Positions 12,974-22,935 of a stretch of DNA of 43,960 nucleotides are shown piece by piece; within the stretch, counting starts at the first letter, position 1; each line of letters starts with the position of its first letter. Source of the DNA: Candidatus Gugararchaeum adminiculabundum. Lineage in GTDB: Archaea; Micrarchaeota; Micrarchaeia; Burarchaeales; Gugararchaeaceae. The DNA is taken from assembly GCA_902384795.1 (NCBI GenBank), contig CABMDC010000003.1:1-43960 (forward strand), read 5' to 3'. The notes under the pieces are model-generated. The model was not told where the DNA came from, did not search any database, and was given only the letters and a program-made list of their open reading frames with translations. The translations under genes were made by a program, and so were the position numbers.

Positions 12974-13510
12974 GTGAATCAGCGTTTCTCAAACAAGCAG
13001 CCGCCCAGAGATACTAATTCCAAGATGGATAGAAATCCATCTTCAGCTTTCTCCAAAGGAAAAGACGCGCTGCCTCAAACCAATATTCAAAAAATGGGTT
13101 TTTTCGTCTGCTGGAGCACTTACAAAACCTTGAAGACAGCGGTAAAAATGCAGAATACCGATCTCGCCCTAGGCGAATACCTCCAGCTTCCCGACAGTTT
13201 TTTCCTCAAAGAGAAAGCATGGAAAAAGCTCGAACCACTTCTAAATGGCAGGCTCACCCTGAAAGCCACTGAATCCAGGGAGACAATTCTCAAGGCAGGC
13301 GAGGATGCGCAGCTCATTCTCAGCATTATGCCAAAAAACCTGGGCAAGGACCGCCTCCACCATTTCATAGCAGCAAGGTTTGAAGAAAAGGCGCTAGACC
13401 AGCTCCTAGTAAAGCATCCCGGCCGCCTGGCAGAGCAGCGCGTCGACTATCTGGAAAATGCGGCGCTATGCGTTCTTTTTGCAAAAAAATATGGGGCTCC
13501 TGGTCCATAA
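12974..13510 (+). CDS. N-terminal part of a frameshift-split J-domain protein
   Basis: 178 residues in this frame, helix-rich and not recognised. The GTG start sits at leaderless distance from a TATA box. The frame ends 21 bases after an A7 run (13483-13489). It overlaps the next frame by 43 bases, and that next frame has no ribosome binding site of its own. Read with a -1 shift on the A7 run, this part (172 residues) joins the following 262 to give one protein of about 434 residues with a C-terminal J-domain. Either the frame change is programmed, or one A is missing from the sequence or the gene. Confidence 0.6.
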   Translation: MNQRFSNKQPPRDTNSKMDRNPSSAFSKGKDALPQTNIQKMGFFVCWSTYKTLKTAVKMQNTDLALGEYLQLPDSFFLKEKAWKKLEPLLNGRLTLKATESRETILKAGEDAQLILSIMPKNLGKDRLHHFIAARFEEKALDQLLVKHPGRLAEQRVDYLENAALCVLFAKKYGAPGP

Positions 13511-14277
13511 GCAATCAAAGGCCGCAGCTGGAGAAAAAAATCGTAGATGCTTTTGTTGACGCTTTCACTGCAATCCCGAGCACGGGGTCATCGCGGGGCT
13601 ATTCGGGCTATAACTCGTTGAAGGAACTACTTGATTTCTTCATGAAATATTCCAAGGGAGACGACATGATCTCCTATTTCAAGCAAAAAGACGTGGCTCC
13701 AAAAATCTCGCGCAAGGTAATCGAGCTTGCGGTTGAGACCATGTCCCGCGCGTGCGCAAGCCATCAGTTTGACATGGAGCGGCTCATGCTCCTGAACAGC
13801 CTGATTGATGCGCAGGACTCCCCGCTTCTGAGGGTCATGGGCGTTGACCTCGAGGAAAAATTCTGGGAAGTGCTGAAAAAAGCAATCCAGCGGGACATGC
13901 CGCAGATGACCCAGTTCACCACGGCAACCTACATGAAGCAGCAAATCGATTTGTATAAATTCTACATGAAACTTGTCGACAATTTCGCCCCTGACCATTC
14001 CACAGACGCAACCCGTATGTTCGGCAACTATACCGGTAGTGGGGCTGGCAGCACTGGCGGAGGCCGCAGCTATGATCGCCCGGGAGCAATGAGCGCCACC
14101 GAAGCTCTCAAAATTCTCGGGCTCAGCCCTGGAGCAACTCTGCCTCAGATAAAAAAAGCGCACAGGCGATTAGCGCGTGAATTGCACCCCGATCTCAACC
14201 CTAATATTGACCAAGCAGGAAAAGAAAAATTCTACAGAGTAACAGATGCCTACAAATCTCTCACGGCAACAAAATAG
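13468..14277 (+). CDS. C-terminal part of the split protein, with J-domain
   Basis: Up to 269 residues in this frame. A helical region (about 20-180) and a Gly/Ser linker (about 187-203) are followed by a J-domain (about 209-269): TEALKILGLSPGATLPQIKK, then LARELHPDLNPN with an intact HPD (240-242). J-domains stimulate the ATPase of DnaK, so this would be a second, specialised co-chaperone beside the DnaJ encoded at 21.8 kb. The ATG at 13468 lies inside the upstream frame without a ribosome site, so the true N-terminus is probably supplied by the frame before it. Confidence 0.7.
   Translation: MRSFCKKIWGSWSISNQRPQLEKKIVDAFVDAFTAIPSTGSSRGYSGYNSLKELLDFFMKYSKGDDMISYFKQKDVAPKISRKVIELAVETMSRACASHQFDMERLMLLNSLIDAQDSPLLRVMGVDLEEKFWEVLKKAIQRDMPQMTQFTTATYMKQQIDLYKFYMKLVDNFAPDHSTDATRMFGNYTGSGAGSTGGGRSYDRPGAMSATEALKILGLSPGATLPQIKKAHRRLARELHPDLNPNIDQAGKEKFYRVTDAYKSLTATK
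13483..13489 (+). other. A7 slippery heptamer at the frame junction
   Basis: In the upstream frame the run reads as A AAA AAA, exactly the layout of a -1 slippery heptamer. A slip here puts the ribosome directly into the J-domain frame (next codons ATA TGG GGC). An eighth A would also fuse the frames, so a sequencing or assembly error in the homopolymer is the main rival explanation. Confidence 0.55.
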
Positions 14278-18303: not shown

Positions 18304-18603
18304 TTACCTGCCCGTTGCTTTCAGCCCCAGCGCATCCAGCACCCCCAGCACTTCATCACCATTGAGCGGCTTTTCCACGAGCAGAGGCTCCGGCCCCCCG
18401 AATCCCAATTTTCCGTTTAGGCCCGGCCCGGGCTGATGCAGACTTGGTTTATGAACATTGGATGGCTGCGCGGCAGAAATTCCCGGCGGGCTTCTTACCT
18501 GCTCCTTCAGGTCTGGCATTGCGTTCGCCCTAGGTGTGAAAAAAGCGGCAACCGCTCCTGCCATCAGCGGAAGAATAATCAGCTTCGGATTCCTCACTTG
18601 CAT
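18304..18603 (-). CDS. Small exported protein, unknown
   Basis: 99 residues with a signal peptide or single anchor (KLIILPLMAGAVAAFF, then TPRANAM). A Pro/Gly-rich mature part follows (PPGISAAQPS; LHQPGPGLNGKLGFGGPEP), ending in a short helix (GDEVLGVLDALGLKATG). No family recognised. A GTTAATAG box centred about 27.5 bp before the ATG suggests a leaderless transcript. It is divergent from the heat-shock operon, and its promoter lies close to that operon's operator, so it may feel the same regulator. Confidence 0.55.
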   Translation of the reverse strand: MQVRNPKLIILPLMAGAVAAFFTPRANAMPDLKEQVRSPPGISAAQPSNVHKPSLHQPGPGLNGKLGFGGPEPLLVEKPLNGDEVLGVLDALGLKATGR

Positions 18604-18640
18604 GCGTTATATTTAGTGTCGAATTGCTATTAACGTCTGC

Positions 18641-18693
18641 TGTCAACACCATATTGACAAATTTTATAAACCTTTGTCAACATAATATGAACA
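18641..18693. promoter_or_regulatory. Heat-shock operon promoter: TATA box between two 19-bp operators
   Basis: Site 1 (18641-18659) is the perfect inverted repeat TGTCAA-N7-TTGACA. Site 2 (18675-18693) is TGTCAA-N7-TGAACA; the two copies agree at 15 of 19 positions including the spacer. The TATA box TTTTATAAA (18662-18670) lies between them, centred 26.5 bp before the ATG at 18693, so site 2 covers the expected transcription start. Binding by the first gene product would block the promoter. The sequence differs from the CIRCE, Phr and HSR1 operators as I know them. Confidence 0.65.
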
Positions 18694-19163
18694 TGCCCTT
18701 CCTATTCGGCGTAAGCGTAAAGCGCATTTCCATCAGGATAGTCGAGACAAAAAACGGCGATTCGGTGGAGCGCTTTTGCGAAAGCATCGGAGTGGTGAGC
18801 GGCAGGGACACGGACAAGACGGCCGCGGAAGTTTTCCGCGCGCTGGTGCAATTCGGCAAAGGAAAGCCCATTGGCGGCAGCGAAATCGCAAGAGTTTCAG
18901 GCATCAACCGCATCACATGTTTACACCACCTCAAGAGGTTTGAGGAAGCGGGGCTGGTGAAAAATCTCAATGGCGAATATCTGCTCTCCGGCCCGTCCAT
19001 TGAGGACATAGTCGAGCAGTTCCGGCGCGATGCCCAGGAGATGTTCGGGTTCATCGAAGGCATGGCGCGCCAGCTGGATTCGGAATTCAGGATTCCAATC
19101 AGCGGGCAGGAAATGGGAAAGCGGCGCATTGCGGCAGCAAAAGGAAGAAAGACAGGTGATTGA
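18693..19163 (+). CDS. Winged-helix regulator heading the grpE-dnaK-dnaJ operon
   Basis: 156 residues. The centre is a winged-helix domain: AEVFRALVQFGKGKPIGGSE, then the recognition helix region SGINRITCLHHLKRFEEAG and a wing (LVKNLNGEYLL). A C-terminal helix (IEDIVEQFRRDAQEMFGFI) may serve in dimerisation. The ATG at 18693 is preferred because it lies 26.5 bp from the TATA centre; an ATG at 18687 is two codons upstream. Its position before the chaperone genes and the two operators on the promoter make it the likely autoregulating heat-shock repressor. It is not recognisably HrcA or Phr. Confidence 0.78.
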   Translation: MPFLFGVSVKRISIRIVETKNGDSVERFCESIGVVSGRDTDKTAAEVFRALVQFGKGKPIGGSEIARVSGINRITCLHHLKRFEEAGLVKNLNGEYLLSGPSIEDIVEQFRRDAQEMFGFIEGMARQLDSEFRIPISGQEMGKRRIAAAKGRKTGD

Positions 19164-19164
19164 T

Positions 19165-19806
19165 TTGGCAGAAGACAATTCGGAAAAGGAAAACGAGAGA
19201 AATGAAAAAATCGATTCGGATGACGTTTCAAAAGTCCTTGACCAGGTAGAGCCCGAGGTCCAGGCAGAGGAAAAGGAAATCGTGCGCAAGGCGGTTTTCG
19301 AGAAGAAAAAGGTTCCGGAAGCAGAAAAGGACAAGCAAATTGACGAGCTCACCGAGCATTTGCAAAGGCTTCAGGCCGAGTTTGAGAATTACAAAAAGCG
19401 CTCAGCAAAAGATTTGGAGCACGCGGAAGAGCGCGCAACCAGGGAATTTTTCCTGCGCCTTTTGGAATTCGTCGATGAGTTCGAGATGGCAATGGATGAG
19501 ATTGAAAAAAGCAAGGACAAGAGCGTGGCGCGCGGAGTCGAACTTTTGTACAACAACCTCGTCACCATGCTGGAGAAGAACGGGGTCGTTCCGTTTGAAA
19601 CAGAGATCTGGGGCGAGATCGACCCGGGCAAGCATGATGTGATGTACGCAGAGGAAAGCGAAAAGCCAGCGGGCAGGATAGTCCGCGTGCTCAAGAAGGG
19701 TTACACCTACAAGGGAAAGATTCTCAGGCATGCGCACGTTTCAGTTAGCAAGCACCCTGAGAAAAAGGAAAAAACAGAGCACGAGCACGGGAAAGATAAG
19801 AAGTAG
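19165..19806 (+). CDS. grpE: GrpE nucleotide exchange factor
   Basis: 213 residues. A long acidic N-terminal region (about 1-60) leads into the coiled coil ([20 protein letters not shown]). The four-helix part with [14 protein letters not shown] follows, then the beta domain with the GrpE hallmarks [13 protein letters not shown] and [21 protein letters not shown]. GrpE is a dimer that releases ADP from DnaK. The start is a TTG at 19165, decided by a full GGTGAT site four bases before it; it lies one base after the regulator's stop. An acidic and His-rich tail (EHEHGKDKK) ends the protein. Confidence 0.92.
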
Positions 19807-19825: not shown

Positions 19826-21751
19826 ATGGCAGGAAAAGAAAAAATAATCGGAATAGATTTGGGAACTTCGAATTCAGCGGCTTCGGTGCTGGAGGCAGGA
19901 AGGCCTGTGATCATCCCCAGCGGAGAGGGAATCACCCAATACGGGAAAGCATTCCCTTCCTACGTTGCATTTTTGCCGGACGGAAGCAGGCTGGTGGGCG
20001 AACCGGCGCGAAGGCAGGCGGTTTCAAACCCAGAAGGCACTTTCACCGCGTTCAAGCGCAAAATGGGAACCAATTTCAAATACGAAGCAATGGGAAAACA
20101 ATTCTCACCGCAGGAGCTTTCAGCAATCCTGCTCCAGAAAATAAAGGCAGATGCCGAAGCATTCCTGGGCGAGCCGGTGAACAAGGCGGTAATCACGGTT
20201 CCGGCATACTTTGATGACAACCAGAGGCAGGCAACCAAGGACGCAGGCGAAATCGCTGGCCTGGAAGTTGTGCGCATCATCAACGAGCCGACAGCCGCAT
20301 GCCTATCCTACGGATTGGACAGAGCTGGAAAAGAGGAAAAAATTCTAGTATTCGATTTGGGGGGCGGCACATTAGACGTCACAATAATGGAATTCGGGGG
20401 CGGAGTGTTTGAAGTGAAATCCACAAGCGGTGACACGCAATTGGGCGGAACCGACATGGACAACACCATTGTTGAATTTTTGGCAAACGAATTCAAGAAA
20501 CAATCGAACGGAATGATAGACATTTTCACTGACCACACTGCAATGCAAAGATTGCGCGAAGCTGGTGAACGGGCAAAGATAGAACTTTCCACCACCATCT
20601 CCTCGGAAATCAATCTTCCATTTTTGTCAGCTGGCCCAAGCGGTCCTATCCATTTCCAGTACAAGCTAACCCGCGCCAAATTGGAGGAGCTCGTGCGCCC
20701 GATAATCGAAAGATGCAGGCACCCGGTTGAGCAGGCGCTCAAGGATGCCAAGCTGACTCCCCACGGGATTTCAAAAGTAATCCTGGTTGGCGGGCCAACG
20801 CGCATGCCCATGGTGCAAAAGTTCGTTGAGCAGGTTGTTGGCAAGCATGCCGAGCACGGGGTGGACCCAATGGAATGCGTTGCCACAGGCGCGGCAATTC
20901 AGGCAGGAGTTCTTGCAGGCGAAGTAAAAGACATTCTTCTGCTGGACGTTACGCCACTCTCATTGGGAATCGAAACCATGGGAAGGATTTTCACCAAGCT
21001 GATCGACAGGAACACAACAATTCCAACTAAGAAGAGCCAGATTTTCTCAACAGCCGCGGACATGCAGACATCTGTTGAGATTCATGTGCTCCAGGGTGAG
21101 CGTTCCATGGCTGATGGAAATGTTTCGCTTGGGAAATTCCAGCTTATCGGAGTTCCCCCCTCGCCGCGCGGAGTTCCGCAAATCGAAGTCACCTTTGACA
21201 TTGATGCGAACGGAATTCTCCATGTTTCAGCAAAGGATTTGGGAACAGGCAAGGAGCAGAAGATGAGAATCACCGCGCCAAATAAAATGGACAAATCCGA
21301 TATTGAAAGCAAAATCAAGGATGCTGAAAAATACGCGGAAGAGGACAAGAAGAGGCGCGAAGAGGCGGAACTGCGCAATGATTCAGAATCCCTGATTTAC
21401 GCGACTGAAAAAACCATGTCCGATTTGGGGGACAAGGTCCACAAGGAGCAAAAGGAAAAAGTGCACGCAGCGATCAAGGAATTAAAGGAAGCGCTCGCAG
21501 GCAAAGATTCCCCACAGCTGAAAGCAAAATACGAGCACCTGAAAAAAGTCGTGCAGGAGGTCGGCTCCAAAATTTACGAAGGCGTGAACAAGGAGCAGGA
21601 GCACCAGCACGAGCACGATGAAATGGGCGGCAAGGGTACCGGAGGAGCCGGAGGCCCTGGAAGCGCTGGCGCAAATGGAAATTCAAAAAAGAGCGGAAAT
21701 GGCGGAGACACGGTTGATGCCAATTTCAAAGTGGAAGATGACGAGAATTAG
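19826..21751 (+). CDS. dnaK: Hsp70 chaperone DnaK
   Basis: 641 residues, normal for DnaK. Nucleotide-binding domain motifs: GIDLGTSNS at the N-terminus, [44 protein letters not shown] and [14 protein letters not shown]. The substrate-binding domain starts after [16 protein letters not shown], and a helical lid is followed by a Gly/Ala-rich tail. It binds unfolded segments in an ATP-driven cycle with DnaJ and GrpE. GGGAGGT seven bases before the ATG is the best ribosome site in the operon. DnaK is patchy in Archaea and generally thought to have come from Bacteria. Confidence 0.98.
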
Positions 21752-21765
21752 GTGAGCTGCTTCCC

Positions 21766-22935
21766 ATGGCAACAAAGCGCGACTATTACGAAATTTTGGG
21801 AGTAGGCAAGAGCGCGAGCAGAGACGAGATTAAGAAAAAATACCGCGAACTCGCACTCCAGTTCCACCCGGACCGCAACAAGGATGCTGGGGCAGAGGAA
21901 AAATTCAAGGAAATTTCCGAAGCCTACGCGGTCCTGAGCGATGATGAGAAGCGCACAACCTATGACCAGTACGGACACGCGGGATTCGACCAGCGCTATT
22001 CCCAGGAGGACATTTTCCGCGGAGCCAATTTCGAGGACATTTTCCGCGAATTCGGGTTCAATTTCGGAGGAAGCGGATTTGGCGGGGGCGGGGATTTCGA
22101 TTCAATCCTCGGCTCATTTTTCGGCCAGCAAATGCGCGGCAGGCGCGGGCGCGGCGGAAGAAGCCGCGCGGAAATCGGCAATGACCTGCGCTATGATATG
22201 GAAATTCCCCTGGAAGAAGCCGCATCAGGAGTTTCCAAGAAAATTGAAATCGCGCACCAAATTTCCTGCGATGAATGCAAAGGAAAAGGCGCGGCACCAG
22301 GCTCAAAAGTTCTCACCTGCAGCGCATGCGGAGGAAGCGGCCAGCAGCAGGTTGTGAAGCGCATGGGCCCAATGCAATTTGCCACCATTACCACCTGCAG
22401 CAGATGCAATGGAAACGGAATCCAGTTTGAAAAAGTCTGCAGCTCATGCAGGGGAAGCGGAAAGAAAAGGGGAACAAGCAAAATCTCGGTTGACATTCCT
22501 TCTGGAGTTCACGATGGCTCCAGCCTGAGGCTTTCGGGCCAAGGCGATTCGGGCCGCGATGGCGCAGGAGATTTGTATGTGGTGATTCACGTTTCAGAAG
22601 ATGAAAGGTTCGAAAGGAACGGCGATGACCTTTACCTTGAAGTTCCAATCACCTTCACCCAGGCATCCCTGGGGGATGAAATAGACGTTCCCACAATCAG
22701 CGGCGCGCATGCAAAACTTTCAATCCCGCCTGGCACGCAGTCGCACACTGTTTTCAAAATGCGCGGCCAGGGAATGCCGCGGCTGAACAATTATGGAAAA
22801 GGGGACCAGCTGGTGCGCGTGATTATCGAAACTCCGAAAAGTTTGAGCGACGAGCAAAAGGAAGCGCTCAGGAAACATTTCGGCGCGCCTGCAAAAGAGC
22901 AGTCACGAAAAGAGAAAAAGTTCGGATTTTTCTAA
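21766..22935 (+). CDS. dnaJ: Hsp40 co-chaperone DnaJ
   Basis: 389 residues. J-domain 1-70 ([25 protein letters not shown] with intact HPD), a Gly/Phe-rich linker (about 85-130), and four zinc-binding CxxCxGxG-type repeats: [32 protein letters not shown]. The C-terminal substrate-binding domains follow, with [17 protein letters not shown] and [16 protein letters not shown]. All features of a type I DnaJ are present. It delivers substrates to DnaK and triggers ATP hydrolysis. GGTGA lies just before the ATG, 14 bases after the dnaK stop. Confidence 0.97.

Follow-up and report, generated by a model that had tools for sequence, protein, structure and literature searches.

Paired TGTCAA-N7-TTGACA dyads as putative operators of a winged-helix chaperone regulator in Micrarchaeota

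The window analyzed here, a stretch of 43,960 nucleotides of contig CABMDC010000003.1 from Candidatus Gugararchaeum adminiculabundum (phylum Micrarchaeota), carries a grpE-dnaK-dnaJ chaperone operon whose first gene encodes a winged-helix protein (hereafter REG), and two 19-bp inverted repeats, or dyads, of the form TGTCAA-N7-TTGACA flank the TATA box of its promoter. Our results indicate that these dyads are probably operators of REG, which would be an autogenous chaperone repressor whose bound sites block the promoter until protein damage leads to its release. REG and the paired dyads most likely constitute a chaperone-control system conserved across Micrarchaeota. A heat-shock repressor-operator system of this kind, separate from the described ones, had been proposed in an earlier note on this sequence, and the proposal is supported by the conservation of the dyad and by its occurrence at the dnaJ, hsp20 and thermosome promoters of relatives, as far as sequence comparison can tell. 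To our knowledge, the novelty lies in a probable regulator of chaperone genes that belongs to a protein family of its own and is paired with an operator of its own; no earlier description of this operator, or of heat-shock regulators in Micrarchaeota, was found in the open-licence literature.

Operator sites and promoter of the operon

Site 1 (TGTCAACACCATATTGACA) is an exact dyad and site 2 (TGTCAACATAATATGAACA) an imperfect one, which shares 15 of its 19 letters with site 1 at an offset of 34 bp. As the earlier note had described, they lie on either side of the TATA box, with gaps of 3 nt to site 1 upstream and 4 nt to site 2 downstream (Table 1). If transcription of the operon begins some 26 nt past the TATA center, the predicted start falls near position 18693. 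The note had also placed site 2 over the predicted transcription start and the start codon of the regulator, and this was borne out, the last letter of the site being the A of the ATG at 18693 that opens the 156-aa REG frame; a further in-frame ATG (18687) falls within the site. A third dyad (TGTCGAATTGCTATTAACG), matching at 10 of 12 positions, is found 24 bp upstream of site 1, and triple dyad arrays are present in some relatives; it is a possible third site, weak when taken alone.

When up to three mismatches were allowed, the pattern gave 18 matches in the window against 18.4 expected, a count that is uninformative. The strict count over the whole 1.47-Mb genome is informative, as sites 1 and 2 are the sole matches to TGTYAA-N7-TTRACA at zero or one mismatch, compared with 14 for the reversed control pattern.

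Conservation of the regulator and the dyad across Micrarchaeota

Homologues of REG were retrieved by a single-sequence search from 49 of the 98 genomes closest to that of the window, the named records among the closest homologues being mostly Candidatus Micrarchaeota. With a profile search (E 1e-6 or better), REG was recognized in 243 of the 295 genomes sampled from the phylum, a number whose weakest matches may be other winged-helix proteins. As far as tested, by searches within that phylum, REG is a winged-helix regulator specific to Micrarchaeota, and its neighbor at 79 of 83 distinct loci is grpE and/or dnaK.

Conservation of the motif before orthologous operons, the test named in the earlier note, was assessed in 250-bp regions around 82 independent REG starts, with the window left out, and the outcome favors the claim. 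A perfect dyad was present in 33 of the 82 regions, where dinucleotide shuffles gave an expectation of 0.005, and a dyad matching at 11 or more of 12 positions in 50 (0.39 expected); in 914 control windows taken elsewhere in the same loci, the corresponding frequencies were 0% and 0.2%. When these regions were aligned on the dyad, the flanks displayed no conservation beyond a TATA-like A+T content, with upstream information of about 0.1-0.3 bit per column; therefore, the conservation of the dyad does not reflect plain sequence relatedness.

The genomic distribution of the dyad follows that of the regulator. Sixteen REG-bearing genomes contain 35 exact sites, distributed over 14 of them, versus 3 for the control pattern. 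Among 20 genomes of the phylum that lack REG, the dyad occurs in one and GrpE is missing from 19; in the sole REG-lacking genome with GrpE-DnaK (G025), no strong dyad was found there. Thus, for the most part, a genome has all of REG, the operator and the DnaK system or has none of them. Separately, tandem dyads (TGTTAAATTTAAGTTAACA and CGTTAATTTAAAGTTAACG) were observed at about positions 1023-1062 of locus L109, in a genome (G063) where neither REG nor GrpE was detected.

Site spacing and operator variants

The start-to-start distances between dyads are 20-21 bp (10 cases), 31-32 bp (9 cases), 34 bp (2 cases) and 51-53 bp (4 cases, either 51 or 53), which correspond to about two, three or five helical turns, as would be predicted if dimers cooperate along the same face of the DNA. 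In the window's own clade, a dyad is located 0-3 nt before the TATA box, another begins 2-17 nt beyond it, or both are present; the N-R-[ILV]-T recognition helix pairs with TGTYAA..TTRACA beside TATA. An A-R-[ST]-T helix, characteristic of a second clade, pairs with TGTCAA..TTGACA, and the dyad of this clade is mostly placed 27-34 nt before the TATA box of REG, often in a promoter shared with a divergent hsp20. The third clade, with most of the P-R-[ST]-T helices, has the variant TTTCAA-N7-TTGAAA, in most members 10-13 nt before TATA, and in the fourth, where the helix shows S-Q-A-A in place of R-[ILV]-T or R-[ST]-T, the corresponding position is occupied by a conserved TTAACAAATTGTTTAAT. Judged from these alignments, operator type and REG recognition helix change together across clades. 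Two exceptions (L055 and L058) combine a P-R-S-T helix with TGTCAA, hence no single residue explains the operator type.

Loci with an SQAA or TQAA helix that carry TTAACAAATTGTTTAAT upstream of REG are L020, L023, L027, L152-L155 and L157-L159, with REG and grpE-dnaK in divergent orientation at L020 and L023.

Other targets of the dyad

Apart from REG promoters, exact sites were identified at promoters of dnaJ (L093, L097 and L100), of hsp20 (L094 and L096, each with a pair, L098 and L099) and of a thermosome gene (L095); Pfam confirmed these targets apart from L100, whose identity was read from its sequence. Furthermore, two dyads precede the hsp20 gene of an hsp20-REG-grpE-dnaK operon (L015). 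Candidate operators are therefore found at the promoters of chaperone genes and of the regulator itself, as in an autogenous chaperone repressor.

Further sites (L101 and L103-L107), which lie within genes or at a distance from promoters, were discounted as chance matches. In genome G001, a pair of dyads (TGTCAATATAATATTAACA and TGTCAGCATCATGCTGACA, L102 1981-2022) lies upstream of a gene for a membrane protein with a bacterial PH domain, a possible non-chaperone target.

The regulator and its Hsp20-like tail

The winged-helix fold that the earlier note had assigned to the first gene product, as well as the gene order of the operon, was confirmed: REG, grpE, dnaK and dnaJ follow each other on the same strand with short gaps. 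In an AlphaFold2 model of the single REG chain, with a mean predicted local distance difference test (pLDDT) score of 87, the winged helix comprises residues 45-100, followed by a long helix in the C-terminal part (105-134) and another, modeled with less certainty, at 139-156. Sequence searches matched generic winged-helix families only, weak generic ArsR/SmtB-type matches among them, and no NCBIfam model scored above its cut-off. The fold neighbors retrieved in structure searches were likewise generic winged helices (SmtB, the Fur N-domain, TrmBL2 and TFE-alpha), in lists from which the absence of a family proves nothing. An alignment of 21 homologues showed only M1, C31, R75, H81, L82, G89, Y98 and A127 as invariant or near-invariant, with H81 and G89 invariant and R75 nearly so; no metal-site pattern was seen in it, and a single Cys is conserved.

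REGs encoded beside hsp20 often end in ...KEVKIE, ...REIKIE, ...KKVKIN or ...NIPVE, in the manner of the IxI tail of Hsp20, and the V/I-K-V/I-E/D tails differ little from the C-terminus of the Hsp20 encoded next to them. Such a tail is present in 16 of 32 REGs with hsp20 adjacent and in 3 of 101 without it (Fisher p = 2e-9, computed on rows that are not independent), while tail shuffling gave expectations of about 1.2 and 1.8 tails, respectively. Mapped on a tree, the tail underwent 9 changes. Among the 6 supported independent pairs, which mostly point the same way, about 2.6 link it with hsp20 adjacency and 0.1 speak for the opposite; the pairs are too few, and after phylogenetic correction the association is not significant. 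The REG of the window has no IxI-like tail. Tailed REGs were noted at L015, L021, L022, L026, L033, L042, L055-L058, L063, L064, L120, L166, L170 and L187.

It is conceivable, although doubtful, that REG represents a third archaeal system of chaperone control, one that extends to Hsp70, to Hsp20 and, in one genome or more, to the group II chaperonin, and that in many lineages senses proteostasis through IxI mimicry, the V-K-I-E tail docking in the Hsp20 groove and free Hsp20 setting the activity of the regulator. Docking by free Hsp20 would yield a feedback loop like those of HspR-DnaK or HrcA-GroE, and the likeness to the Hsp20 tail, if functional, would constitute a new coupling of small heat-shock proteins to transcription.

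Proposed mechanism and alternative explanations

From the findings above, we infer binding by REG, repression, and heat as the signal. Each TGTYAA-N7-TTRACA dyad would be bound by the two recognition helices of one REG dimer, and dimers on the helically phased sites flanking TATA would block the access of TBP and TFB as well as the start site. The REG-grpE-dnaK-dnaJ operon would thereby be kept low and autoregulated, as would the dnaJ, hsp20 and thermosome genes that stand apart from it in relatives; when damaged protein builds up, REG would leave the DNA and chaperones would be made. The sensing step is more speculative: REG may itself be heat-labile, or a chaperone product may feed back on it, one option being Hsp20 acting through the IxI-like tail of many relatives. 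Some observations weigh against this mechanism. No recognizable dyad was found at some REG loci (L019, L074, L150, L161 and L162); the position of the dyad in the A-R-[ST]-T clade, mostly 27-34 nt upstream of TATA even where no divergent gene would require it, is more typical of activators; and the thermosome gene of the window's own genome has no dyad. In that genome, whose regulon was searched by pattern only, no Hsp20 was detected either, and thus the regulon here may consist of one operon.

Since the dyad is found only upstream of TATA in two clades, activation is the main rival to repression. REG, as an activator or dual regulator, would be bound upstream of the B recognition element (BRE) and TATA and recruit TBP and TFB like Ptr2-type archaeal activators, with only the start-site copy repressing. 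This would fit the position of site 1, which abuts the upstream side of TATA, the gap of 0-3 nt in many promoters, the single-site dnaJ promoters that carry only the TATA-abutting upstream copy, and the roughly phased distances of the two clades (10-13 or 27-34 nt before TATA). We nevertheless regard it as unlikely, given that the window's clade commonly has a copy on the start-site side (L005, L008, L049, L053, L059, L062, L070, L121 and L125) and that such a copy is the only strong one in L011, L018 and L144; an activator bound there would block initiation. A main signal other than heat or unfolded protein, such as metal, redox or host contact, with chaperones downstream of it, would agree with the weak matches of REG to ArsR/SmtB-type folds; the targets (the DnaK system, DnaJ, Hsp20 and the thermosome) form a protein-folding set, however, and together with the lack of a metal-site pattern in the alignment they make such a signal rather improbable.

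It could also be argued that another transcription factor binds these chaperone operators and that REG merely travels with grpE-dnaK, as the linkage of REG and operator to one operon cannot by itself identify the binding protein. This seems very unlikely, because dyads are also present at unlinked chaperone genes, nearly only in REG-bearing genomes, the operator type shifts with the REG recognition helix, and the DNA-binding protein that recurs at these loci is REG. Inverted repeats arising by chance in an A+T-rich promoter would account for the lax window count, which equals expectation, but the strict genome count and the conservation in relatives leave this explanation practically no probability. 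An RNA element was rejected because site 1, being upstream of TATA, would not be transcribed.

Features of the window

Table 1. Position of the chaperone operon, its promoter and the putative operators in the window.
Feature	Position	Strand	Remarks
Possible weak third dyad	18617..18635		10/12 match; weak alone
Putative operator site 1, perfect dyad	18641..18659		Abuts upstream side (BRE region) of TATA; position 0-3 nt before TATA kept in relatives
TATA box of operon promoter	18663..18670	+	TTTATAAA
Putative operator site 2, imperfect dyad	18675..18693		Over predicted transcription start and start codon(s); relatives' second copies 31-34 bp downstream
REG, winged-helix regulator, first operon gene	18693..19163	+	156 aa; 158 aa from ATG 18687
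grpE	19165..19806	+	TTG start likely; Pfam GrpE E=1.7e-35
dnaK	19826..21751	+	65-80% identity to grpE-adjacent DnaK frames of relatives
dnaJ	21766..22935	+	Translation shows J domain, G/F region and zinc repeats

A divergent open reading frame of 99 aa (18304-18603, minus strand), whose N-terminus is signal-like, begins at a distance of 14 nt from the weak third dyad, and the control region of the operon could serve it as well. Another one, of 269 aa (13468-14277, plus strand), has a J-domain-like end with an HPD motif in its translation, read by eye, and may encode a second J protein near the chaperone operon.

Comparison with known chaperone regulators

Only two archaeal heat-shock transcription regulators, Phr and HSR1, were counted in a 2022 review (PMC9133787), and the thermosome is absent from both regulons according to a 2023 study (PMC10653856). 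Phr, from Pyrococcus and Thermococcus, resembles REG in being a small, autoregulated archaeal winged-helix protein whose sites lie around the start of chaperone genes, hsp20 included; however, its site, with the elements TTTA, TGGTAA and AAAA at -10, the start and +10, is not matched by those of the window (PMC9133787). The Phr regulon also lacks the thermosome, and in a profile search REG matched the Phr structure 2p4w only weakly (E=0.069, 36 helix-turn-helix residues). HSR1 from Archaeoglobus fulgidus is likewise autoregulated, encoded in an operon with hsp20, and presumed to occlude the promoter from a palindromic operator, CTAAC-N5-GTTAG (PMC9133787), but the half-sites are in opposite order and at another spacing, and it is not described for the DnaK system. 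The distinction that the earlier note drew from known operators therefore holds for both. The DnaK-DnaJ-GrpE system of DPANN is of bacterial derivation and was acquired horizontally by archaea, in an account whose passages on this acquisition name no regulator (PMC8204110).

If our reading is true, REG would be a third archaeal heat-shock regulator beside Phr and HSR1, with an operator sequence that is directly testable and lets chaperone regulons be read from the genomes of Micrarchaeota, which are mostly uncultured. Among bacterial systems, HrcA shares with REG the first position in the operon that it controls (hrcA-grpE-dnaK-dnaJ), and the fold of its N-terminal winged helix (1stz) is in general terms that of REG (Z 8.4 over 65 residues). 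The identification of REG, a protein of 156 aa, as HrcA was rejected, as no HrcA model in Pfam and no HrcA structure in the profile search was matched to E=1. The HrcA operator, the controlling inverted repeat of chaperone expression (CIRCE), is TTAGCACTC-N9-GAGTGCTAA, differing in sequence and spacing from the TGTCAA-N7-TTGACA sites of the window. In actinobacteria, the dnaK operon is repressed by HspR, a MerR-type protein encoded with dnaK, and a chaperone product takes part in sensing; its operator, the HspR-associated inverted repeat (HAIR), is CTTGAGT-N7-ACTCAAG. REG is likewise encoded with dnaK as the putative repressor of its operon, but it is a winged-helix protein and its dyad has another sequence; the 7-bp spacer common to both operators is, as far as known, coincidental. 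In Micrarchaeota, a bacterial-type DnaK system would thus be controlled by another winged-helix regulator, encoded where many bacteria place hrcA.
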